A stretch of 62,730 nt of DNA from Thermodesulfobacteriota bacterium (GTDB taxonomy: Bacteria > Desulfobacterota > WTBG01 > CAIYCZ01 > CAIRTM01). The stretch's first letter is position 1. Every line of letters starts with the position of its first letter. The notes beneath the pieces were generated by a model. The model saw only the letters and a program-made list of their open reading frames with translations, was not told the DNA's origin and ran no database searches. Position numbers and translations under genes: made by a program. This document shows positions 10,279 through 34,943 of the stretch, piece by piece. The stretch lies in NCBI GenBank assembly GCA_028282925.1, contig JANQGV010000243.1, positions 1 to 62,730 of the forward strand. Reading direction: 5' to 3'.

Positions 10279-12387
10279 TCATTGCACATACCCGAGGGCC
10301 TTTAAGTTTTCAAGCACTTCCCCCGAAACTTCTTCGTCGGCTTCTTCAGGTTTGTCCTCCCGAGGTGTGTGACGGTCAATCCAGTATTGCATGCTTGCAT
10401 GCATCTCTTTTGACAGAGTATCTTCACTCTGAAAGAGGTTTTCCTGTTCGCCGGGGTCTTTCTGCAGATTGTACAGTTCTGTGGGTTTTACGTTATCCAT
10501 ATAGCGGATATATTTGTATCCGTTCCGGTACAGTACTTTGTAACTGCTCTCTTTTACCCATAACCCGAATGACTCGGCAAATCCCGACTGTCCGGGGCCA
10601 CCATACGGCCTGCCGGAAATCCCGTCGGGTAGCGGAAAACCGCAAATAGTAAACAGGGTGGGATACACATCTGTGAGGTTTATAATACCATTTTCAAAGC
10701 CGGTGCGAACGTTTCCCGGATATTTAATGATGAGCGGAATCCTCATCAACCCTTCAATCGGTGGAGCGTGATGGTGTTCGTAGTGTCCCCGTTCGCCGAA
10801 AAGTTCGCCATGGTCGGAAGTAATCACAATGAGTGATGAATCGTAAAAATTCTGTTTTTTCAGGTACGTCAAAAGCCTGCCGATTTCATAATCAACAAAA
10901 GTAATTTCAGCATCATACTGAGAAAGAAGAAAACTGTTCCATTGCGGTGTGTTGTGTAACTGCTCCTTATCCTTAAACCTGCTTTTAAACCGGTATGTGC
11001 GCGGGTTTATATCTCCTGAATAGAGATCGGCGTACTGCACCGGGGGTATATACGGTGAGTGAACATCCATATAGTTGAGAAAAAGAAAAAAGGGCTTTTG
11101 TCTTTGGGTGCTTATGAAATCAAGGGCAAGGTTGGTTATGTCGTCGGGCATCGGTAGCTTTTCAGGCTTTTGGTGTACATGTATGAGTAATAAAAAAAGG
11201 TAAAAATAATCGGCCTGAAGGGATTATTGAGGATTTTGCCGAAACTGCTTTTGCAATCATAAAGGTCGAATCCCTGGTCAAGCTTATATCGTGGATTGAG
11301 AAATCCGTAATTAGCAACAATTGCGGCCGTTGTATAGTGATGATTCTTAATGTCTTCGGTCAGTGTTTTAAAAGAGTCCGAAAGTTTGCTGTTTTGATAA
11401 ACACACTCATGTTCGGCAGCATATACGCCGGTAAACAGTGAGGCGTGAGAGGGGAGCGTCCAGGGTGATGGTGCTATGCAGCGGTTAAAGACGACCGAAT
11501 CTTTTGAGAACGCAAGCATATTCGGTGAAGTCTTTACATCATTATACATTGAAAGCCGGTCTGCCCGCAGGGTGTCGATAACAATAAGGATTATATTCGG
11601 CACCGCAGGTGCCGATTCAAATCCTGGAGATTGATAAACGTCGGTGTTTGTTCTCGGGCCGGTTTTGGAGTAAATAGCCCCGATAATCATAGGAGCCATG
11701 AAAAAGAGGCAAACCGCTATGGTTGCCGTCCTGCCGGCATTTTTAAATCGGTTATGCAGGTCATTCGCAATTCTTATGCATACACCATAACCTGCAAAAA
11801 TGATGACTGCCAGCAACGAGTACATAACTGCTTCATGAAAAGCAATCTGAAATCGCGCCCGTACGGTGTTTGTGATAAAAGGTATAATCGTACCAATATA
11901 AAAAACAGACAGCACGCTGCTGTTTCAGGAATGAAACGAAGCGGCGTGAATCGTTCTTTGTTATAAAAAAACAACCGAAAAACCGTAAGGAGTGATACCC
12001 CTACAAAAGGCAGTGCATGGAATGTGCCGGAATGCGTTACACTTGATACCGTTATAAGTGGAAGGTTTGCACCGCCCAAAAGGCCGTAAAGAATACTAAA
12101 CGGTATGAAAAAAAGAGTATCCACAGCCTGTTTTCATTGTCCGTGGGTGAACCGTTTTTGCGTTCGTACACCTTTAGTGCTGAACCGGTAAACAACCCAA
12201 GGAGGCAGTAGAAAACTGAATTGAATAAAAAAAGTATTAAAAAAAAATTCCAGGGTATATACAGTGAAGGCCGCAGGACAAAAATGCAGTCAAAAAAACT
12301 GCATACGACAGCGGTACTAGAACCTAACGACAGTCCCTGTACAGGCCTGTTGTTTTTTAAACAATAAACGGGGTATGAAGTGTCCAT
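10279..12387 (-). pseudogene. sulfatase/alkaline-phosphatase-superfamily membrane protein, three frameshifts
   Basis: One gene of about 700 codons read in four frames. 12387 to about 12110 and on to about 11900 encode a multi-span membrane domain. From there to about 11150 come linker and sulfatase core (IILIVIDTLRADRLSMY, then PWTLPSHASLFTG). From about 11151 to 10279 comes the rest (NYMDVHSPYIPP, VITSDHGELFGERG, and a C-terminal LKALGYVQ). Each switch needs one added base within an A/T run: a T run near 12107-12114, a T run near 11900-11906 and an A run near 11171-11178. The catalytic position reads T-L-P-S-H, so a Thr rather than a formylglycine Cys/Ser sits at the nucleophile, as in phosphoglycerol or phosphoethanolamine transferases of the superfamily. 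Intact it would probably modify or hydrolyse envelope esters. It is either decayed or switchable. Confidence 0.8.
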
Positions 12388-12787: not shown

Positions 12788-12788
12788 A

Positions 12789-12815
12789 TTAGGCATACAT
12801 ACTATGTATGCCTAA
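12789..12815. promoter_or_regulatory. 27-bp palindromic operator
   Basis: Perfect inverted repeat TTAGGCATACATA / TATGTATGCCTAA around one central C. It covers the predicted transcription start of the MarR gene. Symmetry, length and place fit a dimeric winged-helix repressor site and thus autoregulation (inference). It contains the ATG triplets at 12804 and 12808, so a start there would lie inside the operator; a better start is at 12850. Confidence 0.65.
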
Positions 12816-12849
12816 TAAATACCGACTTGACCTTGATGAAAGGATTGCA

Positions 12850-13362
12850 ATGGCATCGAACGCACATGAATATTTTATGTTGATCCGCAAAAAACTGAAG
12901 CTTCTTGAGGAGATTAGAGCCGGCCACTCACGTTTTCTTGAAAAAAATTTTGGAATAACCAGCCGACAGTACGCGATACTTAAGTATATTGATTATTTTT
13001 ATTCTGATGTATCCGTTTCGGTGTCTGAAATATCCCGCGGGGTCGGACTGCATATCACGACAGTCGAAGGCATCATCAACAGGCTCAACAAAGCGAAGTT
13101 TGTCGCCAAGCAGCGCGACCGGCATGACCGGCGGGTAGTAAAAGTCAGGGTAACGGAAAAAGCGAAAAAGGTTCTTCAGGACGCACCACTCGGGCCTGTC
13201 GGACTTTTTCGCGAAAGGCTTCACAAAATGCCTGAAAAGAAAATAGTGGAAATGCTGAATATGCTGGATGAGGTTGTCCTGATATGTCAGGGGGGGGGGA
13301 AAGCCAAACGATCGAAGGACAACAATTCTGCAGGCCGGTCGTCAACGGATAAAAAAACATAG
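12850..13362 (+). CDS. MarR-family transcriptional regulator
   Basis: Winged-helix repressor, likely ligand- or redox-responsive as in the MarR family. The core (about residues 25-115 from the chosen start) shows FGITSRQYAILKYIDYF, the recognition helix region VGLHITTVEGIINRLNKA, and the wing QRDRHDRRVVKVRVTEKAKK. I choose the ATG at 12850 (170 residues) because AAAGGA sits six bases before it, while upstream starts at 12804/12808 lie inside the operator with no ribosome binding site. A run of ten G near the 3' end (13290-13299) precedes a Lys/Ser-rich tail and could slip. It heads the co-directional envelope locus and is probably its local regulator (inference from position). Confidence 0.88.
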   Translation: MASNAHEYFMLIRKKLKLLEEIRAGHSRFLEKNFGITSRQYAILKYIDYFYSDVSVSVSEISRGVGLHITTVEGIINRLNKAKFVAKQRDRHDRRVVKVRVTEKAKKVLQDAPLGPVGLFRERLHKMPEKKIVEMLNMLDEVVLICQGGGKAKRSKDNNSAGRSSTDKKT

Positions 13363-13436
13363 CACGTACCTGTTTTGCGGATCAATAACTATACCATACG
13401 CATATCAAGACAGAATTCAGGACAGGAGGAAAGAAG

Positions 13437-14234
13437 GTGGAAAGAAAAGGAATGATAGATACACGAACAGTTTTTACAGTGGTCTTTTGCCTGGTTTTTC
13501 TGCTGGTTGTAAACATGCCGGCTGCGGCTGCGGATACGGCAAAAAAGAAGTATAAGGAGATCGACGTCGGGGCCGGTGAGTTGGGCATATACGCTAAAGT
13601 TATTGAAGGGGGCCCTATTACGTTTGACCAGGTCAAGACGGACAAGCACCCTGAGTACGCCCGCGGCATGGTGTGTGTTGAATGTCACCAGATGAAGTTC
13701 GATGCAGTTACGTCGTCAACCAGGGTGATCCTAAAAAATCACCGCAACCTGTCGAACGAAAATGTCTGGAAAAAAATCACCGCTTTTCTGCCCGGACGTG
13801 AGCGTTTTGTGTTGACCACCGTATACAATAATGCGCCCACCGCTACAACGGTGGATATGGTGCTCAATACTGATGAAAAGGTGTTTTATGTGCTTTGTGA
13901 AAAGGGTACCGAAAAGCTGATTCACATTCAAAAAAACCCCCGCGTTTGCGCTACACGGCACATGGGATGGACCCTGGCGGAAGCCCAGGCCGGTAAAAAA
14001 CCAAAAAAGCAGTGGATGAGCGTACAGGTGCATGGGACTGCTGAGGTCATCAGCCCGGAAGATTCCCGCTTTGAACCTGTTATACAGAAATACAAACCGG
14101 TACGGCTGACGCTGCAGCGGGCAAAACTGCGATTCGATACGCTTCGCATTACCCCGGAGCGCATCATATATTTCGACACAAACCTTTATGAGGAAAAGGC
14201 CGGCGTATATCAGGAATGGAAACGGTCGCCATGA
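13437..14234 (+). CDS. exported c-type-heme / pyridoxamine 5'-phosphate oxidase-like fusion
   Basis: 265 residues. Residues 1-32 form a signal peptide (hydrophobic TVFTVVFCLVFLLVV, cleavage near AAAAD). A CVECH motif at C80/C83/H84 is a single c-type heme attachment site, credible because the protein is exported. From about residue 110 follows a split-beta-barrel resembling the PNPOx/FMN-binding fold (RFVLTTVYNNAP, TTVDMVLNTDEKVFYVLCE, KNPRVCATRHMGW, QVHGTAEVISPEDSRF). This fold binds flavin, heme or F420 in other proteins; the cofactor here is unknown. The start is GTG at 13437, seven bases after AGGAGG. It is the first structural gene after the MarR regulator, suggesting periplasmic redox chemistry as part of the locus (inference). 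Confidence 0.75.
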   Translation: MERKGMIDTRTVFTVVFCLVFLLVVNMPAAAADTAKKKYKEIDVGAGELGIYAKVIEGGPITFDQVKTDKHPEYARGMVCVECHQMKFDAVTSSTRVILKNHRNLSNENVWKKITAFLPGRERFVLTTVYNNAPTATTVDMVLNTDEKVFYVLCEKGTEKLIHIQKNPRVCATRHMGWTLAEAQAGKKPKKQWMSVQVHGTAEVISPEDSRFEPVIQKYKPVRLTLQRAKLRFDTLRITPERIIYFDTNLYEEKAGVYQEWKRSP

Positions 14235-14387
14235 AACGGTATCGCATATATCTCCGGCGGGGGTAACCGGGCAGAACGGGCCGATGCCAAACGGTTACCT
14301 GATGTATAGTACCATTTGAAGTATGCATGTTCACTTACCAGACACAATATCCGCGCACCATAAAAATCGAACACAGGGGGAAAAGCT

Positions 14388-14789
14388 ATGCGAAGAAAAA
14401 ATCTTATCATGGCCGTCGTTGGTGTCTTTATTCTGTTCGGAGTGGGGGGTTACGGAGTGCATGCCCAGGAAGAAACACCGAGCGGTGTCAATGGAAAATA
14501 CGGTACGATCGTTATCGGAGCAACCGATATTTTCTGGATTGACTTTACCTTTACACCGCCGGACGACTTCAAGGTAGGCAAATGGAACGGCAGGGGGTCC
14601 TATTTCGGTGACATTGTTTTCGGAGCCACCTTTACTGCAATAGACGCAAGTATCGGCGGTATCACGGAAAATGTTACGCTGATTATAGCGGGCATCACCC
14701 AGGATGAATCAACAAGCATCCTCGGGGTCGGGTACCTGGTGGAGGAGTTTCCACCGTCGAGCCCGCTTGTGTTTATCGGGTTTAAGTAA
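14388..14789 (+). CDS. small secreted protein, member 1 of a tandem paralog pair
   Basis: 133 residues, no family recognised. Residues 1-26 form a clear signal peptide ending GVHAQ-E. The mature part of about 107 residues is Gly/Thr/Phe-rich with alternating hydrophobic residues, suggesting a small beta-barrel or beta-sandwich: GVNGKYGTIVIGATDIFW, FTFTPPDDF, a GDIVFGATFTAIDASIG segment, and TSILGVGYLVEEFP. The same pattern recurs in the next gene. There is no Cys in the mature part and no lipobox. A ribosome binding site (GGGGGAAAAGCT) precedes the ATG. A periplasmic or surface role linked to the export genes downstream is an inference from position. Confidence 0.75.
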   Translation: MRRKNLIMAVVGVFILFGVGGYGVHAQEETPSGVNGKYGTIVIGATDIFWIDFTFTPPDDFKVGKWNGRGSYFGDIVFGATFTAIDASIGGITENVTLIIAGITQDESTSILGVGYLVEEFPPSSPLVFIGFK

Positions 14790-14891
14790 AAACCGAAAAA
14801 CCGGCCCATGCGGGCATGGTGTAACGCTGTAGCGCAACCTACTCAATAAAAGGATCGTCAGACATTTTTTTAATGCAGGAAGGGGTGCCTA

Positions 14892-15299
14892 ATGAAAGTA
14901 AAAAATAATGTATTCATGGTAATCATACTTCTCTTAGTGAGTGCATGCTGGATGGGGACCGCCGTCGCACAGAGCGACCCCGCCCCCGGCGTGAGCGGTG
15001 CATACGGAACGACGTTTTACGCACCGACGGATCGATTTTTCAAGACAATTACATTTACCCCACCCAATCGCATCGGCGTCAGCGGATTAAACGGCGTGGG
15101 TTTTTATGCCGGCAGCGTTGTATTTGCCGGATTTTTTTATGCCGTCGATGCCAGAATCGGCTCGGCAAACGGCGATGCACTTATTTTTCTGAGCGGCATA
15201 GCCCTGCCGCCGGCCGAGGGGACTTCCATTGCCGGGGTCGGCTATATCATGCAGCAGAAGGTACCTGAGTATCCCTTTTGGTTCTCTGGAGCGAAATAA
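14892..15299 (+). CDS. small secreted protein, member 2 of a tandem paralog pair
   Basis: 135 residues with a signal peptide (hydrophobic FMVIILLLVSACWM, cleavage near AVAQ-S). The mature part aligns along its length with the preceding gene: GVSGAYGTTFYAPTDRFF, TFTPPNR, NGVGFYAGSVVFAGFFYAVD, ARIG, LIFLSGI, TSIAGVGYIM and a final FSGAK. The Cys in the hydrophobic core is followed by WMG, not a standard lipobox, so I read it as secreted rather than lipidated. AGGAAGGGG precedes the ATG. Identity to its neighbour is moderate, so the duplication is old. Function unknown. Confidence 0.75.
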   Translation: MKVKNNVFMVIILLLVSACWMGTAVAQSDPAPGVSGAYGTTFYAPTDRFFKTITFTPPNRIGVSGLNGVGFYAGSVVFAGFFYAVDARIGSANGDALIFLSGIALPPAEGTSIAGVGYIMQQKVPEYPFWFSGAK

Positions 15300-15453
15300 A
15301 CATCGTGTTTGTGATATCAACTGCACAACGGGCGTTTAAAGAAAAGACCAGCGAGTCGTCGAGCCGGGACAGGCAACAGTCTACTGTTGCACCAGGATGC
15401 CTATTGTACAGAAACAACCGGATGATAACCGCATTCAAACAAAAGGGGGCCAT

Positions 15454-17052
15454 ATGAAACGGCTTATACTGTTTTTTATCATACTGTCGGCAGTGTGCAG
15501 TATCATGCCTGCACCCCCCGTCTTTGCCACTACGGCAACCTTCCTGGACGGCAGGTTGCATGATGTCAAGGGGGGGATACAGCAGGATGCGCGCCTGCAT
15601 CCCTGGCGGGAACAGCGGGATGTAACGCTTTCCAGTTTCAGAACAACCTTCCGTGTCGAGGGACTGCTGGACGTTATCCAGAAAGAGACCTTTGATCTAA
15701 AGCTCTACGGGCTTTTGAATTACTGGGTCAACTCGGCCGACCACATGGACGACAACCTGCGGGATGCCATCAGGATGGAGAACCCGGGCAATGCCCTGAA
15801 TGAGTTCCGGCGGGCCAATGATGAGGACGACATAATCAAAGAGCTCTACCTCGACATGACGTGGGGAGATGATTATCAATATAACCTGCGACTGGGAAAA
15901 CAGATGATTTCCTGGGGCGAAGCCGCCGCCACCCAGGTTGCGGACGTGATCAATCCTCTGAACGTCGCCGATCTGGTGGCGTTTCCGGCATGGGAAGACT
16001 ACAAAATCGGGCTCTGGATGGCTCGTTTCCTGTGGATTCCGGTGAATATGTGGCAGAGCATGTCCTTTGAGTTGTTGATTATCCCGGAGTTTCAGACGAC
16101 CGTGGTTCCTCCCTATGGTACAAACACCTACTTCGCGGCCCCGGTCGGGTTGCGGTACCCCCTGCCTTTCGGCAGCAACGGGCCCCGTTCGTACTACTGG
16201 CCGGCCTATTTCGGATGGCTGAACCGTAAGGCAATGAGCGATGCCGATGACGGTTTTTCCTGGAAAAACCTTGAAATCGGTTTGCGTGTCCGCGGGTTCA
16301 CGTACGGGTTCGACTGGACCGTCTTCGGTTTCTGGACCAGGCGGGATTCACCCGTCTATGACGGCGCCTCGGGACGGGCCAACCTGGTGGCGCACCGGGT
16401 GAACCGCGCCATCAGTGATCTTAATATTGAAAACCCCAGCCTGGGCATCATCAAGCGAAAAACCGGCAGGATTTACAAGTATCCCCGGTTCTTCGTCCTG
16501 GGATTTACCTTCAACAAACCCGGCCCGTGGAAAACCCGCTGGAAGGGGGAGGTTACCTTTAACTTCGACAAGGAATTCAACTACCAGGGCCCCCGGGGCA
16601 TCATCGACAAATACAAGACCCGGGATGTCGTGACCACGGCCATCGGCGTGCTCAGGACAAATGAGATACCCTGGCTGTCACGCATCAACCAGGGCAGGGC
16701 GCTGACGACAAATGTGACCTGGTACCATTTTAATCTTTTGGGCCGTAACCGCGATCAGGACAGCGGTTACCGGATTCTGTGGGAAAACTCGGACCGCAAC
16801 TCGTATGATTATATCGCCTTTTCCATTGCCACCTCGTTCTTCTACAGCCGGCTGACCACGGCCTGTGACATGATCTATTATTTTGACGGCCGGACCACGA
16901 TTGTGCCGACTCTTTCCTACCGTCCCGGGAGCTGGATCGGCGACCACTTCAAGGTTACGGTCCAATATTCACGCCTGAACGAAAGGGCGCAGGTCAGGGA
17001 CCATCACCGGGTGCGGGACAGCATACGGATCAGGCTGACCTGGGATTTTTAA
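15454..17052 (+). CDS. DUF1302-family outer-membrane protein
   Basis: Predicted outer-membrane beta-barrel of 532 residues from the ATG at 15454, preceded by AAAAGGGGG; the frame is open further upstream, but the signal peptide (MKRLILFFIILSAVCSIMP ... VFAT) begins here. Family-typical segments include ELYLDMTWGDDYQYNLRLGK, MISWGEAAATQVADVINPLN (about residue 155) and alternating aromatic strands to the end. The last strand ends RIRLTWDF, with the terminal Phe recognised by the BAM machinery in beta-barrels. DUF1302 genes typically sit next to DUF1329, YCF48-like and RND exporter genes, exactly the set here, and are thought to take part in envelope transport. Substrate unknown. Confidence 0.85.
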   Translation: MKRLILFFIILSAVCSIMPAPPVFATTATFLDGRLHDVKGGIQQDARLHPWREQRDVTLSSFRTTFRVEGLLDVIQKETFDLKLYGLLNYWVNSADHMDDNLRDAIRMENPGNALNEFRRANDEDDIIKELYLDMTWGDDYQYNLRLGKQMISWGEAAATQVADVINPLNVADLVAFPAWEDYKIGLWMARFLWIPVNMWQSMSFELLIIPEFQTTVVPPYGTNTYFAAPVGLRYPLPFGSNGPRSYYWPAYFGWLNRKAMSDADDGFSWKNLEIGLRVRGFTYGFDWTVFGFWTRRDSPVYDGASGRANLVAHRVNRAISDLNIENPSLGIIKRKTGRIYKYPRFFVLGFTFNKPGPWKTRWKGEVTFNFDKEFNYQGPRGIIDKYKTRDVVTTAIGVLRTNEIPWLSRINQGRALTTNVTWYHFNLLGRNRDQDSGYRILWENSDRNSYDYIAFSIATSFFYSRLTTACDMIYYFDGRTTIVPTLSYRPGSWIGDHFKVTVQYSRLNERAQVRDHHRVRDSIRIRLTWDF

Positions 17053-17145
17053 GGTGCAACGTTGTCGTACGCAAGACGATCCAGGAACGTATCAGACGCC
17101 ATTGTGGGCGGTGTATCGGTAACTACCAAGCAAGAGGAGAACGCC

Positions 17146-18402
17146 ATGATAAAACATTTTCAAGCAATCACGCGGTATGTTCTGCTGCCGGTTGTGGTGC
17201 TGGCAATTGTGACCGGGGCGTATGCGGCCGAGGTTGTCTTTCCCGTCAACTGCTACAATGGAGAAGAACTGGCCGGGGTGCGTGCATGGGAAAAGCAATG
17301 GGCAGGAAAAAAAATAAGCAGTAAAAATGTCGATTCGGTCAAGGAGTTTATTCCCGACGGTTTGTACAAGCTCATGACCGAAACCGACCGGTGGGGAGAA
17401 AGCTGGTTTGAGATCGCCCCCTATGAATCGTATCCGCAAACACCCGGTACCATCGAGTACACACGAAAGTATTCGCCCCAATGCAAGATTACCGACGACC
17501 GCAACCTGGCGGGGTGGGTAGCCGGTGTTCCCTTTCCCTCCCCAGAATCCGGCCTGCAGATCGGCTGGAACTTCGACTGCTGGAACCGCGGCGATACGTA
17601 TGAGAGCATTTCGCAGGGACACACCGTTGACGGAAGAATCGAGGCGGCCAAGGAATCCGCTCAGCACACCTACCGGATGCAGTTCTCCGGCAGAACCGAC
17701 ATGGACCCGCACCCCGAGATCGACAGGAACAAGCACGATTTGAAATCGTCCCAGTCCTATCACTTTCTGGCGCCTGCCTATGTGGCCGGAACAATGGGGT
17801 TTACCCTCAAATACAAGGATAACGACAAGGAATGGGACAGTTGGACCTGGTCGCCGACAACCCGCAGGATATCGCGCGTGTCCACGGCGCAACGCACAAC
17901 CGTGGCGGGAACGGGTGACATCACCCGCGACGACAACCACAACTGGGACGGTGCCGTACGCCGGAACGTCTACAGGCTGCTGGGCCGGAAAGAAATTCTG
18001 GTAGGCCGTAATATCGACCCGCAAAAGCTTATTTACAATGAGGGTGATTGCCTGTTCGACGGCATACAGCGCCAGCGGATCAACTGTTATGTCGTTGAAG
18101 TGGAGTGTAAGGACCCGGGCTATATTTATAAAAAATCGATCTGGTACGTCGACCCTGAGATATACAACGTCATCTATGCGGAAAAATTCGACCGCTATGG
18201 ACGCCTCTGGAAAATACAGGAACAGATGGAATATGTAGGCACATCCAAACTGGGGTTTGAGCTTGTCGAATTCGGGGGTGTGTACTGTATCGATTATCAG
18301 CGTGTGCATTCGACCCTGTCACAGCGTAAAGAATACAATTCAGGCATCCCGATCAAGCGTAACTATTTCAGCGTCAACGCTTTGCTGCGCCGCGGCAGAT
18401 AA
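17146..18402 (+). CDS. DUF1329-family exported protein
   Basis: 418 residues from the ATG at 17146, preceded by GAGGAG. The N-terminus has a signal peptide (RYVLLPVVVLAIVTGAYAAE). The mature part contains AGWVAGVPFPSPESGLQIGW (about 115-135), YRMQFSGRTDMDPHP and a C-terminal half with DWE-like aromatic strands (SWTWSPTTRRISRVS, IWYVDPEIYNVIYAEKFDRYGRLWK), as in DUF1329 proteins, which resemble the LolA/LolB-type half-barrel and are thought to handle hydrophobic molecules in the periplasm. It follows DUF1302 by 93 bases on the same strand. No obvious lipobox. Role in the locus: carrier or adaptor between barrel and inner-membrane exporter (inference). Confidence 0.85.
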   Translation: MIKHFQAITRYVLLPVVVLAIVTGAYAAEVVFPVNCYNGEELAGVRAWEKQWAGKKISSKNVDSVKEFIPDGLYKLMTETDRWGESWFEIAPYESYPQTPGTIEYTRKYSPQCKITDDRNLAGWVAGVPFPSPESGLQIGWNFDCWNRGDTYESISQGHTVDGRIEAAKESAQHTYRMQFSGRTDMDPHPEIDRNKHDLKSSQSYHFLAPAYVAGTMGFTLKYKDNDKEWDSWTWSPTTRRISRVSTAQRTTVAGTGDITRDDNHNWDGAVRRNVYRLLGRKEILVGRNIDPQKLIYNEGDCLFDGIQRQRINCYVVEVECKDPGYIYKKSIWYVDPEIYNVIYAEKFDRYGRLWKIQEQMEYVGTSKLGFELVEFGGVYCIDYQRVHSTLSQRKEYNSGIPIKRNYFSVNALLRRGR

Positions 18403-18410
18403 TGAGGAAC

Positions 18411-18481
18411 ATCTCCCGCCGGTGTCTGCTGCCACACTCGGCGAGGCGAGTGAAACTGTCACGGCCGGTCTGACGGGAGAT
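18411..18481 (+). repeat. nested hairpin between the DUF1329 and YCF48-like genes
   Basis: Outer arms ATCTCCCG (18411-18418) and CGGGAGAT (18474-18481), with an inner hairpin CACTCG (18435-18440) / CGAGTG (18447-18452). No U-run follows, so it is not a simple terminator. It could protect or partly separate the two halves of the transcript. Confidence 0.5.
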
Positions 18482-18528
18482 TGCACACCGTCAGCCGCCG
18501 GACACTACACAGACAGGATTAACGCACT

Positions 18529-19578
18529 ATGAATGTATTCGTACACATTGATCGTCTTTGTATGCTGGGCATTTTTGCCGTAGCGGTCCTTCTGCCTGCC
18601 TGTGCCGAGCAGCAGGTATCCGAACCGTCCCCAAAAAAGAAAATCATTACCCGGGCCGGTTTGTGCGGTGTATCCGCCCCGGACCCCCGGCATGTGTGGA
18701 TTGTCGGTTTCGGCGGTGAGATTCTGCATTCAGCCGATGGGGGCGACACCTGGGCCAAGCAGGAAAATCCCGCCGATCCGGTCGAAGACGCCTATTATGA
18801 TGTGCATTTTGTAGGCGTACGCCATGGCTGGGCAGTGGGGAAATTCGGTAAGATAGTCTCTACTATCGACGGCGGCACCACATGGACATCCGGCACCCGG
18901 AAAACCGATCACAGGCTGTTTGCGGTTCATTTCAGCGACCGCCGCAACGGCTGGGCGGTGGGCTATTACGGCACAATCCTGCACACCGCCGACGGGGGCG
19001 CAACATGGGAATCCCAGGGATGGGGGGAGGATGCCGTATATAATGATGTTTTCTTTTTAGACAACGGGACGGGCTGGATTGTGGGCGAGTACGGCACTAT
19101 GCTGCACACCACCGACGGTGGACGGAAATGGACAAAACAGGAGTGCGCCGATATTATCCCGCCCGGCATTGAGGACATCTGGCAACCGCCGCCGTCTTCC
19201 CTCTACGGTGTTTATTTCAGGGATGCCTCCACGGGCTGGGCCATTGGTAATGAAGGCCACATTATTTTCACGGAGGACGGGGGTGCGCACTGGCGCAAGC
19301 TCGCTACCGGAACGGATGTGCAGATGTTTCAAATGGCGGTCATGGGCGGCAACGGCTGGGCGGTGGGGCAGCGGGGCACATATCTATGTTCCACCGACAG
19401 CGGCAGAACATGGGCCGTACCAGAACGTCAACTGCCGGCGAAATTCTGGCTGCGGGACATTGCCTTTGCCGACCAGCAGGTCGGGTGGGCGGTCGGTTCG
19501 CGAGGAACCATCATCAAGACCGAAGACGGTGGGCAAACGTGGATTATGATTTCCGGCATCACGCCCCCCGACATATAA
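18529..19578 (+). CDS. YCF48-like beta-propeller lipoprotein
   Basis: 349 residues. The N-terminus has a lipoprotein signal with LLPAC and Cys at 25, so it is probably membrane-anchored on the periplasmic side. The mature part is built of repeated Asp-box/BNR units (ADGGDTWAKQE, IDGGTTWTSGT, ADGGATWESQG, TDGGRKWTKQE, EDGGAHWRKL, TDSGRTWAVPE, EDGGQTWIMIS), each near a GWAVG or GWIVG strand. That pattern defines the YCF48/Hcf136-like propeller, named from a photosystem II assembly factor but widespread in non-phototrophs next to DUF1302/DUF1329/MMPL genes. Its role in such loci is unproven; scaffold or assembly factor for the export complex is an inference. Confidence 0.85.
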   Translation: MNVFVHIDRLCMLGIFAVAVLLPACAEQQVSEPSPKKKIITRAGLCGVSAPDPRHVWIVGFGGEILHSADGGDTWAKQENPADPVEDAYYDVHFVGVRHGWAVGKFGKIVSTIDGGTTWTSGTRKTDHRLFAVHFSDRRNGWAVGYYGTILHTADGGATWESQGWGEDAVYNDVFFLDNGTGWIVGEYGTMLHTTDGGRKWTKQECADIIPPGIEDIWQPPPSSLYGVYFRDASTGWAIGNEGHIIFTEDGGAHWRKLATGTDVQMFQMAVMGGNGWAVGQRGTYLCSTDSGRTWAVPERQLPAKFWLRDIAFADQQVGWAVGSRGTIIKTEDGGQTWIMISGITPPDI

Positions 19579-19684
19579 AACAGAACGGCAATGCGGGACC
19601 CGTCCGTATGCCGCTACTGCCCACACAAGGGCTGTTGTAGCGGGAAAACAGGTGAAACCAGATCATACTTTCGGATAGAACATT

Positions 19685-22039
19685 ATGAAACGATTCGCAC
19701 AATACATATTGAAGCTCCGGCTGCTGATTGTAACACTGTTTACGGCCGTTACTGTTTTTCTGGCATACCAGATGTTCAGCGGTCTTACCGTGGGCACGAA
19801 CTTCGCCGAGCTGCTGCCCCAAAGTCATGACTATGTAAAGCTGCACAAGGAGTTTCGTGATAAGTTCGGAGGCGCCAATTTCCTCGTTATTATGGTCAAA
19901 GTGAAGGACGGAACCATTTTCAATAAAGAAACCCTGAAAAAAATAAAGTTTATCACCCTTGACCTGGAGCGGGTGCCCGGCATCGACCGCTATAAAATTG
20001 TTTCAATCGCCTCGCTAAAGCTGAAGGTCACCGAAGTCAGCACATTCGGTTTTAAATCGGAACCGCTGATGTACCCGGATGTGCCGCAAACCGAAGCGGA
20101 AATGCAGGCGTTGAAGAACAACATATACTCCAGCGAGGCTTTATACGGCAAATATGTATCCCATGACTGTAAAAAGGCCATGATCTATGCCGACTTTTTC
20201 GAAGAGAGAATGGACTATAACGTTGTTTACAAATACCTGGTCGACCTGCGGGCACAGATCGAAGACGAGAACACCAGCCTGCACATTATCGGGCATCCCA
20301 TGCACCTGGGCACCGTTGCCAGCATGACGAACACAATGAACTACGTCATGGCCGGTACGCTTTTGCTGATCGGTCTGCTTATTTACCTCAGCTATCGTTC
20401 GCTGTTCGGCATGGTCATTATTGTCGGCTCTGGTGCCGTTTCACTGGTCTGGGGGTTGGGCTTCATGGCAATCATGGGCTATAACCTCGATCCGCTCATT
20501 TTCGTGATGCCCTTTTTAATAGCCCTCATGGCCTTTCGGCACTCCCACCAGTTGTACAATCGCTTCTATGAGGAATACCTGCAGCACCAGGACCGCAGGA
20601 AAGCCGCTGAAACCATTATCGAACGGATGTTCCTCCCCGGGTTTACCAGTGTGATTACCGATGCGTTCGGTATTGCCATTATTGCCATTACACCGATACC
20701 GTTATTGAAAAACATAGCAATGGCGTGCGCCTTCAGCAGCATCGTAACGGTGCTGGTCGGGCTTATTCTCACGCCGGTTTTGCTGACCTATGTGCCTGCA
20801 TCGAGCCGCTTTCTCGCTCATATAACAAAAGAAAAGAAAAAAGACGAGTTGCGCCGGGGACTTGCCAACCGCTTTGCCGACTGGCTCGGGCCATGGCTGA
20901 TCGGAAGAGGACAAAAACGTATCGGTATTGTTGTTATTCTTGTGCTGATTTTCTCGTTTTACTGGTCCGAACAGATGATTATCGGTGATGCCGAGGTCGG
21001 CTCAAATCTGCTCTGGCCGGATTCCCGGTACAATAAGGACGCCCAGGTGATCAATCGGCATCTGCCCCTTATCAGCCCGCTGTACATAACGGTCATCGGT
21101 GAAGAACGCAAGGATATCCAGGATTATGATGTGTTGATCGACATCGAACGATTTACCCGCTATATGAACCTGAATTCCGGTGCGGTCGGTGCTTCCAGCA
21201 TTGCCAGCATTGTGAAGGTCATGGGTCAGAAGATGCACCAAAATGATCCAAAATGGCTCGGATTTCCCGACACCAAGCGTGAGGCGTGGGTCTATTTCGG
21301 CAAGGCGACCGGTGCAGGCGACCCGGGGGACATGGACAAATACATCGACTATTATAACCAGTTTTCCAGCATCTGGTTTTACTACAAAGACAAAACAGGG
21401 CCGACCATCGTGCGGGCCATCGAAGCCGCAAAGGAATACGTGGCAAAACACGCCAGGCTCCCTGATGGTGTACGGTACAAGCTGGCAGCGGGTGTTATCG
21501 GCGTTGAAGCCGCCATAAACGAGGTTGTGGCCGCAAAGCAGCTCCAAACCCTGCTGGTTGCCCTGGCCGGTGTCTTTGTCTTCTGCAGCTTGAATTTCCG
21601 TTCTCTTAAGGCCGGTCTCATACTGATGCTTCCCCTTGTGCTGTCGAATTTCCTGGCCTTTGCCTACATGGCCGTCAACCAGATCGGCCTGTCGATCTCC
21701 ACCCTGCCGGTTTCCGCGGCGGGAATCGGCATGGGGGTCGACTACGGCATTTACCTTGTCGCCCGTCTGGCTGAAGAACGCAGGAAAAACCCGGACGGCA
21801 CACTTGAAGAAGCATTGATACGGACAATTCAAACCTACGGTAAGTCGATTATCTATATAGCCGGGACCCTGGTAGTGGGCCTGCTTGTATGGACTATTTC
21901 ACCACTGAAGTTCCAGGCCCAGATGGGAATGATGCTGGCAGTTATCCTTTTCCTCAACTGTCTGGGAGCCATTTTTCTGGTGCCGGTACTGGTATTGTGG
22001 CTCAAACCCCGTTTTGTTGCGGGAAACGCTAAACGGTAG
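19685..22039 (+). CDS. MMPL/RND-family exporter
   Basis: 784-residue inner-membrane transporter. TM1 lies at about 12-32 (LLIVTLFTAVTVFLAYQMF), then a large periplasmic loop to about 215, a block of TM helices at about 219-390 (including YVMAGTLLLIGLLIYLSYRS and LVWGLGFMAIMGYNLDPLIF), TM7 near 415-435, a second periplasmic domain, and a final block near 620-780 with GIGMGVDYGIYLVARLAEE, the family's conserved charged TM motif. This two-half layout is the sterol-sensing/MMPL type that moves lipids or hydrophobic compounds. It is the energised component of the locus; proton drive is assumed from the family. Substrate unknown. Confidence 0.9.
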   Translation: MKRFAQYILKLRLLIVTLFTAVTVFLAYQMFSGLTVGTNFAELLPQSHDYVKLHKEFRDKFGGANFLVIMVKVKDGTIFNKETLKKIKFITLDLERVPGIDRYKIVSIASLKLKVTEVSTFGFKSEPLMYPDVPQTEAEMQALKNNIYSSEALYGKYVSHDCKKAMIYADFFEERMDYNVVYKYLVDLRAQIEDENTSLHIIGHPMHLGTVASMTNTMNYVMAGTLLLIGLLIYLSYRSLFGMVIIVGSGAVSLVWGLGFMAIMGYNLDPLIFVMPFLIALMAFRHSHQLYNRFYEEYLQHQDRRKAAETIIERMFLPGFTSVITDAFGIAIIAITPIPLLKNIAMACAFSSIVTVLVGLILTPVLLTYVPASSRFLAHITKEKKKDELRRGLANRFADWLGPWLIGRGQKRIGIVVILVLIFSFYWSEQMIIGDAEVGSNLLWPDSRYNKDAQVINRHLPLISPLYITVIGEERKDIQDYDVLIDIERFTRYMNLNSGAVGASSIASIVKVMGQKMHQNDPKWLGFPDTKREAWVYFGKATGAGDPGDMDKYIDYYNQFSSIWFYYKDKTGPTIVRAIEAAKEYVAKHARLPDGVRYKLAAGVIGVEAAINEVVAAKQLQTLLVALAGVFVFCSLNFRSLKAGLILMLPLVLSNFLAFAYMAVNQIGLSISTLPVSAAGIGMGVDYGIYLVARLAEERRKNPDGTLEEALIRTIQTYGKSIIYIAGTLVVGLLVWTISPLKFQAQMGMMLAVILFLNCLGAIFLVPVLVLWLKPRFVAGNAKR

Positions 22040-22103
22040 CACTGGAGTAAGTATGCCCTGTATATCACCCGATTATTACCAACCGATAAACAGGAGGTGG
22101 ATC

Positions 22104-22583
22104 ATGAAACACAGCACATTGATTTTACTCGTCACCTTTTTAACCCTCTGTATTACCGTCCCGGCCTTTTCCCGGGAACAAGAGGAGGAAATTCCGCCGG
22201 ACACAAAGATCACCCGGCATGTTGTCGTGCGGATACACTATGTGGGTAAGGTCATGCCTGAAACAGTCACGGTTGCACCCGGAACAACGGTTATCTGGCT
22301 CAACGACGGCAAAGGAGCGATGGAAATACTGTTTAAAGGCAAGCAGGTAATGGTGGCCTGTAAGAACCCGGTACATTTTGTGCTGGATGAAAGCGGTTCA
22401 TTTAGATCCGATCTCATTCCCCAGGGGGCAGTGGCGAGCCTGTGCTTTATCGAGCCGGGCGAATACACCTATGTGGCGCGGAGGGTGTATCGGAGCAGCG
22501 CTGATCTCAAGGAGTTCCAGCGGTCCCCTTTGCAGAAAACATTTCAGGGCAAAGTAATTGTGCGTGTCCCGAAAAAGAAATAA
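22104..22583 (+). CDS. exported cupredoxin-like protein lacking usual copper ligands
   Basis: 159 residues from the ATG at 22104, six bases after CAGGAGGTGG. A signal peptide (STLILLVTFLTLCITVPAFS) is followed by a plastocyanin-like pattern: HYVGKVMPETVTVAPGTTVI, WLNDGKGAMEILF, SGSFRSDLIPQGAVASLCF and IEPGEYTYVARRV. In blue-copper proteins a His follows the WxN strand and Cys-His-Met follow the YTY strand; here these positions read KGAME and VARRVYRSS, so a type-1 copper site is unlikely. Two other Cys in the mature part could form a disulfide. It closes the co-directional run with the MMPL exporter; an accessory substrate-binding or structural role is a guess. Confidence 0.65.
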   Translation: MKHSTLILLVTFLTLCITVPAFSREQEEEIPPDTKITRHVVVRIHYVGKVMPETVTVAPGTTVIWLNDGKGAMEILFKGKQVMVACKNPVHFVLDESGSFRSDLIPQGAVASLCFIEPGEYTYVARRVYRSSADLKEFQRSPLQKTFQGKVIVRVPKKK

Positions 22584-22608
22584 TGTAACGGTGCGTTTCA
22601 GGTAGAGC

Positions 22609-22678
22609 GGGTTGTCTGCGGATACAAGGGCTGGTGTAAACCCAACCGTATATCTCCCCCCCCTCCCGCAGACAACCC
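22609..22678. repeat. inverted repeat flanking a 44-base spacer
   Basis: GGGTTGTCTGCGG (22609-22621) and its exact complement CCGCAGACAACCC (22666-22678). The spacer includes a run of C (about 22655-22663). It may end the exporter transcript (without a U-run) or be a small mobile or regulatory sequence. Confidence 0.5.
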
Positions 22679-22739
22679 ATGATGAATTTCAGCTACCGCT
22701 GTTGCGGTGGGCTGTGTTATAATAAAAATACCAAACGGC

Positions 22740-23768
22740 ATGGTTGTTGACATGTTCATGAAAAGAAGACATACACTAATGGTGTACACGGTTTTTACAT
22801 GTGCAATACTGTTTGAGTACGTCGCCGGGATGTCAGTACCCCGCGTGGCCGCCGTGGAGAAAAGATCTCCTTACCCGGCAGCACGTAAAACACTCATCGC
22901 CAAAAAAGATCTGCCCTTATACGGCAGGCGAATTTTATACACCACCCCGCGGAACTATGCAGGCAAACTGGGGCAGCTCCTCATCGAGCATGGAGCACTG
23001 CCGGTGTGGATGCCCACGATCGTTGTTGAGCCGTTGCATGATTATCGGGAGCTGGATCAGGCAATTAAGAGCATATCAGACTATGATTGGATAGCCTTTA
23101 CAAGTAGAAACGGTATTGAAGCATTTTTAAACAGGTGCGCGGCAGTCGGCGCCGGCCTTGAAGTGCTTCGCGGCTGTAAAACAGCCGCCATCGGCAGTGA
23201 TGCCCGCGCATTGGAAAAAAAAGGTATTGCCGTAGATCTGATCCCGTTTGATTCCAGCCCACTGGGGATTGTCGATGAGTTGGTGAAACGCGGGGCCGCA
23301 AAAGGAAGTGTACTGCTGCCCGTTCCCGAGGTGGTCGGCATGAAGGAGCCCCGGGTTGTCCCTGATTTTATAGACGGGCTTTTACAAATCGGCATGCGGC
23401 CGGTGCGGGTGCCGGCCTATCGGACCGCGCGTGAAACCCAAAAATACACTACCGAACTTCAAATGATTCGTGACGGAACAATCGATAGTATCGCCTTTAC
23501 CAGTCGCGGCGAAATTGAGTCGTTACTGCTTGTGCCCGGCGTACAACAGGATATGCTGAACGAAAAAACGATCATAGCCTGTTTCGGGCCGGTTACCGCC
23601 GAAGGAGCTCGGCAGCGGGGTTTGGATGTGAAAATTGTTTCCAAGAACTATGCGGCATTCGAGGGTTTTATTGAGGCCATGGAACAGTACTATACTTTCC
23701 GGAACGACGGTTCGGCAAAAGGCGCTGCCCAGGGAACGGTAACGGGTACGAAGCGGCGGCGGGAATGA
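22740..23768 (+). CDS. HemD-like (uroporphyrinogen-III synthase fold) protein with N-terminal signal or anchor
   Basis: About 342 residues from the ATG at 22740; starts at 22752 and 22758 are also possible, none with a good ribosome binding site. The first 35 residues are basic then hydrophobic (KRRHTLMVYTVFTCAILF), a signal peptide or anchor. From about 55 it matches the HemD two-lobe fold: GRRILYTTPRNYAGKLGQLL, MPTIVVEP, YDWIAFTSRNGIEAFL, IGSDARALEKKG, VLLPVPEV, IDSIAFTSRGEIESLL and IACFGPVTAEGARQRG. The two SR-N/GIE-type motifs are the family hallmarks. HemD normally acts in the cytoplasm on hydroxymethylbilane; an exported form is unusual and its ligand unknown. The C-terminal tail is Gly/Lys/Arg-rich. 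Confidence 0.7.
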   Translation: MVVDMFMKRRHTLMVYTVFTCAILFEYVAGMSVPRVAAVEKRSPYPAARKTLIAKKDLPLYGRRILYTTPRNYAGKLGQLLIEHGALPVWMPTIVVEPLHDYRELDQAIKSISDYDWIAFTSRNGIEAFLNRCAAVGAGLEVLRGCKTAAIGSDARALEKKGIAVDLIPFDSSPLGIVDELVKRGAAKGSVLLPVPEVVGMKEPRVVPDFIDGLLQIGMRPVRVPAYRTARETQKYTTELQMIRDGTIDSIAFTSRGEIESLLLVPGVQQDMLNEKTIIACFGPVTAEGARQRGLDVKIVSKNYAAFEGFIEAMEQYYTFRNDGSAKGAAQGTVTGTKRRRE

Positions 23769-30453: not shown

Positions 30454-31827
30454 TCAGGAAATCTCCTTGTAGAGAAACGGCTGCAGCACTTCGGAATTAT
30501 GCGACGCCCTGATTTTACGCAGCGCCGCGGTTTCAATCTGCCGAACGCGTTCACGCGATATGCCGAACTTTTCACCGATTTCTTCCAGTGTGTGCTCTGC
30601 ATCAACACCCAGTCCGAACCTGAGGCGCAGTATTCTCTCGTCACGTGGCGGCAGGTCCTTCAGGGCATCCTCGGTTACATTAAAGAGCTGATATTGAAGA
30701 ACCTTGTCCATGGGGGAGGGCGGTATTGTGTCGGCTATACACTCATGCAGGTTGCTGCCGTCCTCACCGAAAGGCGTCTCAAGAGAAATCGGATCCCGTA
30801 CGAGCTGCATGGCAAAGTACAGGTTTTCGGATTCACCTTCGGCCGGTACCGGAACCGCTTCATCTGCGTCATGATCAGGGTCGGCTGATTGACGCGAAAT
30901 CCTTTTAATCTTGTCGTTAATGTAGATCGGCACCCGGATCGTTGACGATTTTTCTTCGATGGCCCTGATAATGGTCTGCCGTATCCACCAACTGGCATAT
31001 GTGCTCAGGCGATTGCCGAGCCGGTAATCGAACTTATCGATGGCCCGCATCAGACCGATGTTGCCTTCCTGAATCAGATCGGAAAACGGCAGGCCGCGAT
31101 TAGTATACTTCTTTGCAATGCCCACAACAAGCCGCAGGTTGGAGCGTACCAGCATCTCCTTTGACTTCTTCGCCTGCCGGTCATGTATCGTGTATGCACG
31201 CAGGATGTGAATGATTTCTTTTTTATGCTTCCTGGTGACCTGTTTCATGATATAGGGGTACAATGTGCGAATGAGTCCCGACCGGTACATTTTCAGGACG
31301 TTGCACTGCCCGGCAACTTCGTGCAGCGACAGTAACTGGTTCGCCTTTTCACGGCTGAGTTTTTTGCGTTTGTAATAGGACTGGTTTTTCTGTGAAATAC
31401 GGGCTTCAAGGTCCCTGATTATATCGGTGAGGCTCGCTATCTCCTTAATGGTTCGCAGCAGGCTCTTTGTTTCCTTGTTGCTGAGCGTTGCATCAAGGTC
31501 CTGATGTTTTGCAAGACGGTTCCATAGCAGGATTTTTTCAAACAGTTGTGCCCATTCAACCGCCAGGATGCGTTTGTTGTACTCTGCTTCACTGAGGGTT
31601 CGGGCGATGAGTTGTTCCTGCTCCTTTTTAAGGATCGGCCATTGCCTGATTTCCTTCAAATAAGCTGATACGATATTTACATCTTTTGCTTGGCGTACGG
31701 TCCGCGATCCTGTATTTTGCCTGGCATCTATCTGTGTATCGGTAAGCTCTTTTTCAACCTCAAGCACACAGGTATCCACGTCATCGGAAACGGTAGTAGA
31801 AATTTTTTTTTGCTGTATGCTGCCCAT
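30454..31827 (-). CDS. sigma-70 family RNA polymerase sigma factor (group 1/2 type)
   Basis: 457 residues. Region 1.2 is VSAYLKEIRQWPILKKEQEQ (about 51-70). A basic, Lys/Arg-rich non-conserved region of about 120 residues follows. Region 2 runs SNLRLVVGIAKKYTNRGLPF, DLIQEGNIGLMRAIDKF, NRLSTYASWWIRQTIIRAI. Region 3 is IEEKSSTIRVPIYI and region 4 LPPRDERILRLRFGL to TLEEIGEKFGISRERVRQIE. It is too short for the main RpoD of this group and lacks region 1.1, so a secondary (RpoS/RpoH-like or lineage-specific) sigma is more likely. The start at 31827 follows AAGGGGG. Two inverted repeats lie upstream (31865-31891 and 31993-32025), one near the expected promoter. It ends at a shared terminator. Confidence 0.93.
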   Translation of the reverse strand: MGSIQQKKISTTVSDDVDTCVLEVEKELTDTQIDARQNTGSRTVRQAKDVNIVSAYLKEIRQWPILKKEQEQLIARTLSEAEYNKRILAVEWAQLFEKILLWNRLAKHQDLDATLSNKETKSLLRTIKEIASLTDIIRDLEARISQKNQSYYKRKKLSREKANQLLSLHEVAGQCNVLKMYRSGLIRTLYPYIMKQVTRKHKKEIIHILRAYTIHDRQAKKSKEMLVRSNLRLVVGIAKKYTNRGLPFSDLIQEGNIGLMRAIDKFDYRLGNRLSTYASWWIRQTIIRAIEEKSSTIRVPIYINDKIKRISRQSADPDHDADEAVPVPAEGESENLYFAMQLVRDPISLETPFGEDGSNLHECIADTIPPSPMDKVLQYQLFNVTEDALKDLPPRDERILRLRFGLGVDAEHTLEEIGEKFGISRERVRQIETAALRKIRASHNSEVLQPFLYKEIS

Positions 31828-31864
31828 AGGTTAGCCCCCTTGTTTTTATATTTATATAGTATTC

Positions 31865-31891
31865 TATTTTGGCAATTAACATGCCAAAATA
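31865..31891. promoter_or_regulatory. inverted repeat upstream of the sigma-factor gene
   Basis: TATTTTGGCA (31865-31874), seven-base spacer, TGCCAAAATA (31882-31891), 38-64 bases before the sigma-factor ATG. On the minus strand it overlaps possible -35 elements (TTGGCA and TTGCCA). It looks like an operator for a dimeric regulator. Confidence 0.55.
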
Positions 31892-31992
31892 TCGTCCCTT
31901 CCATGTATTGTCTAAGCTTATGATAAAGCATGCTTTTTAGTGTGCATGTGACATTTTTGTTTTAAATGTAGGTATTATTGATTTTCTTTTAT

Positions 31993-32025
31993 TCCAAAAT
32001 GGAATTAGTTGTATTCCATTTTGGA
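31993..32025. promoter_or_regulatory. second inverted repeat upstream of the sigma-factor gene
   Basis: TCCAAAATGGAAT (31993-32005), seven-base spacer, ATTCCATTTTGGA (32013-32025), perfect. It shares the CCAAAAT/ATTTTGG core with the repeat at 31865-31891 and the same seven-base spacer, though the arms face the other way. Confidence 0.55.
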
Positions 32026-32123
32026 TGTGTAATCTGAGAGTAAATACCTATATAGCCTCTCTTGTTTAAATAATAATTACTATTATCAAAAAATCAAATG
32101 CGCAATAAAAGAAAAATACAATT

Positions 32124-32137
32124 TCCTTCCCGGGAAG
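32124..32137. repeat. 14-bp perfect palindrome
   Basis: CCTTCCCGGGAAGG with no spacer, in AT-rich surroundings, about 55 bases upstream of the 13-codon ORF. Function unknown; possibly a protein-binding site. Confidence 0.35.
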
Positions 32138-32192
32138 GGTATATATCTCTACGCTGGAACTCCTTTATGAACAGGAGAATAGGGGGCTCATA

Positions 32193-32234
32193 ATGAATGT
32201 TTTTGATCGGGGAATACTGTCCGGGGAGGCATAA
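32193..32234 (+). CDS. possible 13-residue peptide
   Basis: ATG at 32193 with AGGGGG six bases before it encodes MNVFDRGILSGEA and stops at the base of the terminator at 32233-32268. The strong ribosome binding site and position make it more than random, but there is no coding-statistics support. It could be a leader peptide or tiny protein on a short RNA, or chance. Confidence 0.25.
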   Translation: MNVFDRGILSGEA

Positions 32235-32268
32235 AAAAGCCCTTCTGAGTCAACAGAAGGGCTTTTTT
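32233..32268. terminator. bidirectional rho-independent terminator
   Basis: Perfect 15-bp stem AAAAAAGCCCTTCTG / CAGAAGGGCTTTTTT, loop AGTCAA. It ends the NuoF-type operon on the minus strand, 32 bases past its stop, and could end a short plus-strand transcript carrying the 13-codon ORF. Confidence 0.92.
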
Positions 32269-32300
32269 CACAGTCGTTTTTTATTAACTACACCCGATGG

Positions 32301-33992: not shown

Positions 33993-34034
33993 ATTTCCCT
34001 CGTATATAAAACGTTATATATGCGTATCTATCAT

Positions 34035-34943
34035 TTATGCTATTGAATCTATCTTGGCTTTTGCATCCCGGCCCTTGAACACCTTGCCGTCCACTTCAAC
34101 AACGGGGGCGCAGTCGCAGCATCCCAGACACAGGGTTTTTTCCATAGTCATATCATCGCTCTGTACAATGGTCTGCTCGATTTCGGCTGCAATGCCGTCT
34201 TTGTCGTGCAGGTGGCATGCAGTGCCGCAGCAGAGTTTGACATGGTGTTTGCCGGGGGCCGTCATTTTGAAAGCCTTGTAGAATGTGGCAATATTATAAA
34301 TGATGCTGAGGTTGATCCCGCTTTTATTGCTGATGGCCTGTAGTGCTTCAACCGGCAGGTAGCCGATTTCATCCTGGGCGTCGTGCAGAATGTACATCAG
34401 TTTGTCCTGGGAGGTGCCGTGGCGCGCGATGATATCGTCGATGATTTTGGGATCGTAATCGCCGAGTTCCTTGAACTTTTTCAAAATAGTGCTCTTGAAC
34501 GGTTCAGGAACGATTTCGTTCACCACTGCCAGCACGTGGTCTTCAACCACATCGCCGCCCTGGCATTTCTGGCTGATAACGCCCATGAGTTTTCCTCTGA
34601 ATACGCCGCGCATTGCTTCGGGAACTTCGCCAAGCATGATCTCAAACATGATCTCGCTTTTGCCCGTCCAGCTCACCGAAGGCGTGTCGTCGGCTGCTTC
34701 CTCTGCACCGTTGTCGCCGGAGGAGATGCCCAGGGCCGCCATGAGGGCGCTGCGCTGGGGCTCAGGCATATCTTCTTCAACCATTTTTTTAACAATGTCT
34801 TCTGTAACCGGGTTGCCGGCAGCTTTGGCTGCAAGCATTTCAAGCAGTTTGGGCTTGATGCCGTCGCGCATCGGTTCCGGAACAGCCTGGATAAGCTTAT
34901 CGAATATTTGTTCACCTTCCGGCGTCCACTGTATGTCTGCCAT
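34035..34943 (-). CDS. NuoE-like [2Fe-2S] subunit with two N-terminal PCP_red-like repeats
   Basis: 302 residues, nearly twice the usual NuoE length. Residues 1-65 (WTPEGEQIFDKLIQAVPEPM, later VTEDIVKKMVEED) and about 88-155 (WTGKSEIMFEIMLGEVPEAM, later VVEDHVLAVVNEI) resemble each other and the helical PCP_red domain found in dark protochlorophyllide reductase and some redox proteins. From about 160 it is NuoE: KLMYILHDAQDEIGYLP, IYNIATFYKAF and cluster ligands C238-x4-C243 (CCGTAC) and C272-x3-C276 (CLGCC). It forms an electron-entry pair with the NuoF-like protein 42 bases downstream. The doubled helical domain may dock the complex on a partner (inference). SD and ATG are normal. Confidence 0.88.
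   Translation of the reverse strand: MADIQWTPEGEQIFDKLIQAVPEPMRDGIKPKLLEMLAAKAAGNPVTEDIVKKMVEEDMPEPQRSALMAALGISSGDNGAEEAADDTPSVSWTGKSEIMFEIMLGEVPEAMRGVFRGKLMGVISQKCQGGDVVEDHVLAVVNEIVPEPFKSTILKKFKELGDYDPKIIDDIIARHGTSQDKLMYILHDAQDEIGYLPVEALQAISNKSGINLSIIYNIATFYKAFKMTAPGKHHVKLCCGTACHLHDKDGIAAEIEQTIVQSDDMTMEKTLCLGCCDCAPVVEVDGKVFKGRDAKAKIDSIA

Follow-up and report, generated by a model that had tools for sequence, protein, structure and literature searches.

What does a ten-gene envelope locus of an uncultured Thermodesulfobacteriota bacterium carry across the cell envelope? The locus occupies positions 12808-23768 of the window, i.e., the whole stretch of 62,730 nucleotides that was analysed (contig JANQGV010000243.1 of assembly GCA_028282925.1). 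Its ten genes lie consecutively on the + strand with intergenic gaps of about 64-154 bp, in the order marR, PNPOx-c, sec1, sec2, DUF1302, DUF1329, YCF48, MMPL, cupr (cupredoxin-like) and HemD-like gene (Table 1). A convergent histidine kinase gene begins at 23777, directly past the HemD-like gene. With a probability of roughly 0.5, the locus is a MarR-controlled Ame-type trans-envelope transporter, equipped with exported and tetrapyrrole-fold accessories that serve a hydrophobic substrate of tetrapyrrole type such as a porphyrin, bilin or chlorophyll derivative. Both the accessory set and the neighbours of paralogous cassettes point to this substrate, and a transporter adapted to it, set within oxygen-independent tetrapyrrole metabolism, is the best reading. 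The Ame-type core is known already.

By composition and gene order, the core is assigned to the tetrapartite RND systems of the AmeABCD type. An earlier sequence-only reading of the window had treated these four genes as unexplained, which can be corrected: the contiguous A-B-C-D order at 15454-22039 matches AmeABCD of Castellaniella defragrans, a tetrapartite RND system tied to monoterpenes (PMC6394551). The pump sequence was compared with that of Aromatoleum aromaticum EbN1, and is 32.7% identical to the MMPL protein of the YCF48-MMPL-DUF1302-DUF1329 cassette of EbN1. Against TIGR00921 the window pump scores 150.8 bits, with a subfamily cut-off of 351.9. The source genome (G000; 5.6 Mb, 324 contigs) encodes eight further full-length AmeD-type pumps as well as contig-edge fragments. 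All functional data available for this core come from work on monoterpenes, Tween20 or phenanthrene, benzene being a proposal based on proteomics (PMC6394551, PMC10866462, PMC13101534), and the EbN1 cassette is located on a plasmid inside a beta-oxidation/CoA-ligase cluster. These data favour a conventional Ame-type transporter with a terpenoid, a hydrocarbon or a lipid as its cargo, in which PNPOx-c, the cupredoxin-like protein and the HemD-like protein would be incidental or would work on non-tetrapyrrole ligands. Such a transporter is considered rather unlikely, though it is the strongest of the alternatives.

The head of the locus carries a perfect palindrome of 29 bp that was absent from the sequence-only reading. 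Its 14-nt arms are 100% complementary in an inverted-repeat search, and no match was obtained in 100 shuffles. Lying over the marR start, the palindrome is likely the MarR operator, and the ten genes are predicted to form one MarR-controlled operon. That the ten genes are consecutive and co-directional, as first described, was confirmed, and Pfam supports the MarR, PNPOx_N, DUF1302, DUF1329, YCF48, MMPL and HEM4 assignments. The claim that all nine genes after the regulator encode exported or membrane proteins stands in part: signal-like N termini, judged by hydropathy only, are found in PNPOx-c, sec1, sec2, AmeA, AmeB, AmeC and cupr, while the signal of the HemD-like protein is weak. It is very improbable that these neighbouring genes lack a common function; gaps of about 100-150 bp would allow several transcription units, but the genes share one strand, one palindrome at the head and a convergent gene at the end, and they co-occur in another genus in a different gene order.

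Table 1. Features of the locus with positions in the window, strand and supporting matches.
Feature	Positions	Strand	Remarks
Perfect palindrome ATTAGGCATACATA-C-TATGTATGCCTAAT, candidate MarR operator	12788..12816		overlaps marR ATG at 12808
MarR-family regulator, 184 aa	12808..13362	+	PF12802/PF01047/PF22381 above cut-off
PNPOx-c, exported CxxCH (c-type heme motif) protein with split-barrel PNPOx/FMN/F420/heme-binding fold	13452..14234	+	PF01243 (PNPOx_N) 3.7e-11
sec1, secreted protein	14388..14789	+	no Pfam/NCBIfam match; homolog in L069 downstream of AmeD
sec2, secreted paralog of sec1	14892..15299	+	no Pfam match
AmeA-type DUF1302 outer-membrane protein	15454..17052	+	PF06980 1e-16
AmeB-type DUF1329/LolA-like periplasmic protein	17146..18402	+	PF07044 3.1e-38; PF17131 LolA_like 3e-13
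AmeC-type YCF48 repeat protein	18529..19578	+	PF14870 3e-43; lipobox-like N-terminus LLPAC
AmeD-type MMPL/HAE3 RND transporter	19685..22039	+	PF03176 7.8e-23; TIGR00921 HAE3 3.9e-44
cupr, secreted cupredoxin-like protein	22104..22583	+	plastocyanin resemblance weak, E=0.003-0.01
HemD-like protein (uroporphyrinogen-III-synthase fold)	22758..23768	+	HEM4 PF02602 1.4e-39

PNPOx-c was correctly recognised as a fusion of a CxxCH motif with a PNPOx-like domain, and the motif is kept among orthologs: at 43-61% identity, H71-P72 and C80-x-E-C-H84 are invariant. Homologs were surveyed in 58 genomes of the phylum, 17 of the class to which the source genome belongs (drafts of 150-630 contigs) and 41 others. 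Up to ten occur per genome in the class (in G000 at the window, L122, L124 and L140), many with signal-like N termini; they share the motif HPxxxxGxxCxxCH, and the expanded family is restricted to the class among the genomes searched. They are probably monoheme proteins with a split-barrel fold. The three named relatives of PNPOx-c are metagenome-assembled genomes (MAGs); Lake Pavin is the source of two, and the third is designated 'Dive96' Deltaproteobacteria. In the AlphaFold2 model, the barrel mostly shows predicted local distance difference test (pLDDT) values of 70-92. Among the nearest solved folds are At3g03890 and PaiB, both in heme-bound form, and Rv2074, a biliverdin reductase dependent on F420. 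As these heme, F420 and bilin binders sit within a broad list of 154 matches at E<=0.001, mostly split barrels, the fold search leaves the cofactor undecided. An identity as HugZ/HutZ-type heme oxygenase was rejected for the window protein, which does not match TIGR04109 or TIGR04110; only a soluble PNPOx protein in L011 matches the HugZ/HutZ models, weakly, at ~1e-4.

Sec1 and sec2 were proposed as secreted paralogs, in agreement with their identity of 37% and their signal-like N termini; given an AlphaFold2 pLDDT of 39, no fold is claimed for them. Neither these two proteins nor the cupredoxin-like protein has a match in the Pfam search. The description of the latter as a cupredoxin without copper ligands holds, since the usual copper-site cysteine of the C-terminal YxYxC loop is replaced by alanine (YVARR), although the cupredoxin resemblance itself is weak. 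Two cysteines are conserved in the alignment of 28 cupr homologs.

The HemD-like protein does not reach the curated HemD equivalog, with a best NCBIfam score of 84.7 bits at a cut-off of 275, and contigs C59 and C285 of the source genome each encode a further HemD homolog with the size of a CobA-HemD fusion. Its closest relative, with 48% identity, is encoded on contig C138 of G004, a genome of another genus in the same family, and the remaining homologs reach at most 36%. The sequence-only reading regarded it as clearly exported. This cannot be maintained: its export signal is weak, with a maximum Kyte-Doolittle (KD) value of 1.7, and is missing in the 48% relative, so that export is not conserved.

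Related genomes do show the extra genes beside the core, so that the refuting condition named with the sequence-only reading did not apply. At G004:C138, PNPOx-c (62%), cupr, the HemD-like gene (48%), AmeD and AmeC share one 11-kb stretch, in a gene order different from that of the window, together with three geranylgeranyl-reductase-like (GGR-like) flavoproteins, a ferrochelatase-like protein and then an FrhB/BciB-type reductase. Between this locus and that of the window, the AmeD pumps share just 41-42% identity and fall into different subclades of the AmeD tree, so that the accessory set travels with different pumps. That the HemD-like gene accompanies PNPOx-c and cupr in both genera argues against incidental neighbours of an ordinary transporter. 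Furthermore, PNPOx-c adjoins AmeC-AmeB-AmeA at G010:C70, and a sec homolog is found downstream of AmeD at G001:C278. Two candidates were discarded: a 610-aa protein of G004, considered as a new family, falls into the divergent ferrochelatase-like family, and the resemblance of the 597-aa protein U597 to ferrochelatase is weak (hhalign probability 16-89) and is not claimed.

Co-localisation was assessed by counting marker homologs within 10 kb of AmeD (n=60) relative to the expectation under uniform placement. FDBR homologs (PF05996, bilin-reductase-like) were found near 14 of the 60 pumps (at most 4.2 expected, an enrichment of about 4-fold, p 1e-4), GGR-like proteins near 12/60 (4.6 expected, p 0.003) and cupr near 9/60 (at most 1.5 expected, a 6-fold enrichment, p 2e-5). 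Within the source genome, an Ame homolog is present at 7/12 FDBR loci, two of which share one contig, and at 1/14 control contigs (p 0.007). A mutual clustering of all accessory families was rejected, with several pairs at chance level. The enrichment of FDBR near pumps, together with BchNBL-like and ferrochelatase-like neighbours in paralogous and sister loci, speaks against a conventional transporter of terpenoids, hydrocarbons or lipids. In line with one are the AmeD-type pumps that fall outside the main clade, most of which lack marker genes in their vicinity, and GGR-like flavoproteins would suit isoprenoid chemistry.

The wider genome content points in the direction of a tetrapyrrole-like substrate. 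FDBR homologs occur in 13/17 class genomes, with 6-17 per genome, and in 0/41 other genomes of the phylum; a strong one matches the solved structures PEBB/PebA/PcyA with E values of 1.5e-17 to 1e-9. A BchB-like protein is present in 11/17 and 0/41, respectively. In FDBR-bearing genomes the ferrochelatase-like proteins are all divergent (best E 1e-19 or weaker), and the FDBR-less G011 and G015 have canonical ferrochelatases (1e-81 to 1e-84). Anaerobes may make heme without ferrochelatase, and hence the absence of the canonical enzyme is uninformative by itself. In the source genome, the paralogous Ame cassettes L011 and L012 and the lone pump of L009 lie beside FDBR, and cassette L015 lies beside BchL/BchN/BchB-like genes. 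By contig, FDBR homologs, PNPOx and cupr are on C261 and C90, GGR-like proteins on C90 and C243, and BchL/BchN/BchB-like genes with a PCP_red domain on C65. No match to PF01126 heme oxygenase or to the PF00124 photosynthetic reaction centre was obtained in the 17 class genomes, and phototrophy via a PF00124-type reaction centre was rejected on the latter result. From habitat and gene content, the members of the class are probably anaerobes.

G013:C205 contains a BchB-like gene, two ferrochelatase-like matches and FDBR within about 9 kb (31729-40220), and at G002:C122 (76725-80037) a distance of about 1 kb separates BchB from FDBR. In the source genome, L125 (contig C76, 2694-3674) encodes a fusion of a two-cluster ferredoxin (Fer4) with FDBR, the FDBR domain of which also matches RCC_reductase PF06405 (1.7e-6). 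L129 (contig C220, 11340-13982) encodes a protein of 880 aa that matches hydrolases of the PETase/Chlorophyllase type (PF07224 4.9e-7); the same run of genes includes an NmrA-type gene, FDBR, AmeA and AmeB. L123 (contig C271, 2992-6982) holds four flavodoxin-like genes with signal-like N termini beside FrhB/BciB-type and ferrochelatase-like genes, and FDBR lies close to the contig end.

A possible course of events can be outlined for the window locus, in which each role is a proposal drawn from protein families. The substrate would release MarR from the palindrome. The DUF1302 barrel and the DUF1329 LolA-like carrier may take it through the outer membrane and periplasm, with the YCF48 repeat protein as the scaffold of the transporter. 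PNPOx-c, as a flavin/heme protein, and the Cys-pair cupredoxin could bind the substrate or exchange electrons with it, and the proton-driven HAE3/MMPL pump would deliver it to the inner membrane or collect it from there. Binding of the tetrapyrrole or its linear form may be the role of the HemD-like protein.

As to the direction of transport, uptake is slightly favoured. C. defragrans AmeABCD was called an exporter on the basis of a small difference in Nile Red accumulation in a deletion mutant (PMC6394551), but mutants that lose growth on hydrophobic substrates fit uptake too. A heme/porphyrin export or detoxification operon, or secretion of a self-made tetrapyrrole pigment instead of catabolic uptake, would accord with the Nile Red data, with the biosynthetic origin of the HemD and ferrochelatase folds and with the periplasmic heme suggested by the CxxCH protein. 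It is nevertheless improbable, as the neighbours of FDBR or Ame loci include an MFS gene and hydrolase genes, some of them chlorophyllase-like, which look more like substrate processing, and no PF00124 reaction centre that would need pigment was found in the class.

Other observations weigh against a tetrapyrrole-like substrate in general. HEM4 is the sole tetrapyrrole-specific family at the window, where FDBR, Bch and chelatase genes are absent. The HemD-like protein is matched at 1e-40 in only 2/17 class genomes (G000 and G004), and G004 is devoid of FDBR. Characterised AmeABCD acts on monoterpenes (PMC6394551), PNPOx proteins bind many cofactors, and the GGR-like and SDR families are promiscuous. 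On the statistical side, PNPOx-c near AmeD taken alone (4/60, p 0.06) and the FDBR-ferrochelatase-like pair (p 0.18) are not significant. The expectation assumes uniform placement, the p values are uncorrected for several pairs, and the contigs are fragmented, which lowers the observed counts. The view already taken from the sequence, of an envelope system whose compound is tetrapyrrole-like or otherwise hydrophobic, is retained with regard to the pump-associated extras and the FDBR/BchNBL/GGR-like neighbours of paralogous cassettes, and revised with regard to the core and to HemD export, with the substrate still inferred.

To our knowledge, little is known of the enzymes by which bacteria break down chlorophyll and other tetrapyrroles anaerobically, although large amounts of such pigments reach anoxic sediment. 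This uncultured anaerobic class (Deltaproteobacteria-like MAGs) is tentatively proposed to degrade or remodel tetrapyrroles independently of oxygen, e.g., derivatives of chlorophyll in anoxic waters and sediments. Expanded FDBR-, ferrochelatase-, BchNBL-, FrhB- and GGR-like enzymes would be used, and pigments would cross the envelope via paralogous Ame-type transporters including the window locus. If true, the poorly understood Ame-type transporters would gain a new substrate class, and candidate enzymes and a transporter are named that can each be expressed and tested singly. The strong expansion of FDBRs in genomes without detectable PF01126 heme oxygenase contrasts with their argued ultimate dependence on oxygen for substrate (PMC10151467).

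Outside the locus, a sulfatase-like gene on the - strand (10279-11915) appears to be frameshifted, as it is split into two frames, 10279-11151 and 11136-11915, that overlap.

In the literature searched, neither a description of the window gene set nor one of a Desulfobacterota bilin reductase was found, and four systems allow a comparison. The pre-PcyA/FDBR clusters of heterotrophic bacteria (Rockwell et al. 2023, PMC10151467) likewise place FDBR homologs in non-phototrophs. They usually hold or accompany heme oxygenase and bilin-binding globins, whereas the class studied here has no PF01126 match, 6-17 FDBR copies per genome and Ame cassettes and GGR-like proteins among the FDBR neighbours, with the window itself free of FDBR. 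The 'nanopod' cluster of ORM2a, a benzene-degrading member of the Desulfobacterota, was proposed from proteomics to move benzene (PMC13101534). It shares DUF1329, YCF48 and MMPL genes, highly expressed in this anaerobic degrader, and differs in a universal stress protein and a porin-like protein. In Pseudomonas putida, PP_0765/PP_0766 and PP_2018/PP_2019 are required for Tween20 metabolism and were proposed as a substrate transport complex (PMC10866462). DUF1302 and DUF1329, a periplasmic protein and an RND transporter are common to both systems; that of P. putida is divided between two separate loci and has a fatty-ester substrate, with tetrapyrrole-like accessory genes not reported. AmeABCD of C. 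defragrans (Puentes-Cala & Harder 2018, PMC6394551) resembles the window locus in DUF1302, DUF1329, YCF48/COG4447 and an HAE3-type RND protein, in the order A-B-C-D and in its link to hydrophobic-compound metabolism. In contrast, the window locus adds MarR, the exported PNPOx-CxxCH fusion, two secreted paralogs, the cupredoxin-like and the HemD-like protein; it belongs to a class of uncultured, probably anaerobic bacteria, and its source genome carries many paralogous pumps, some of them beside bilin-reductase- or BchNBL-like genes.

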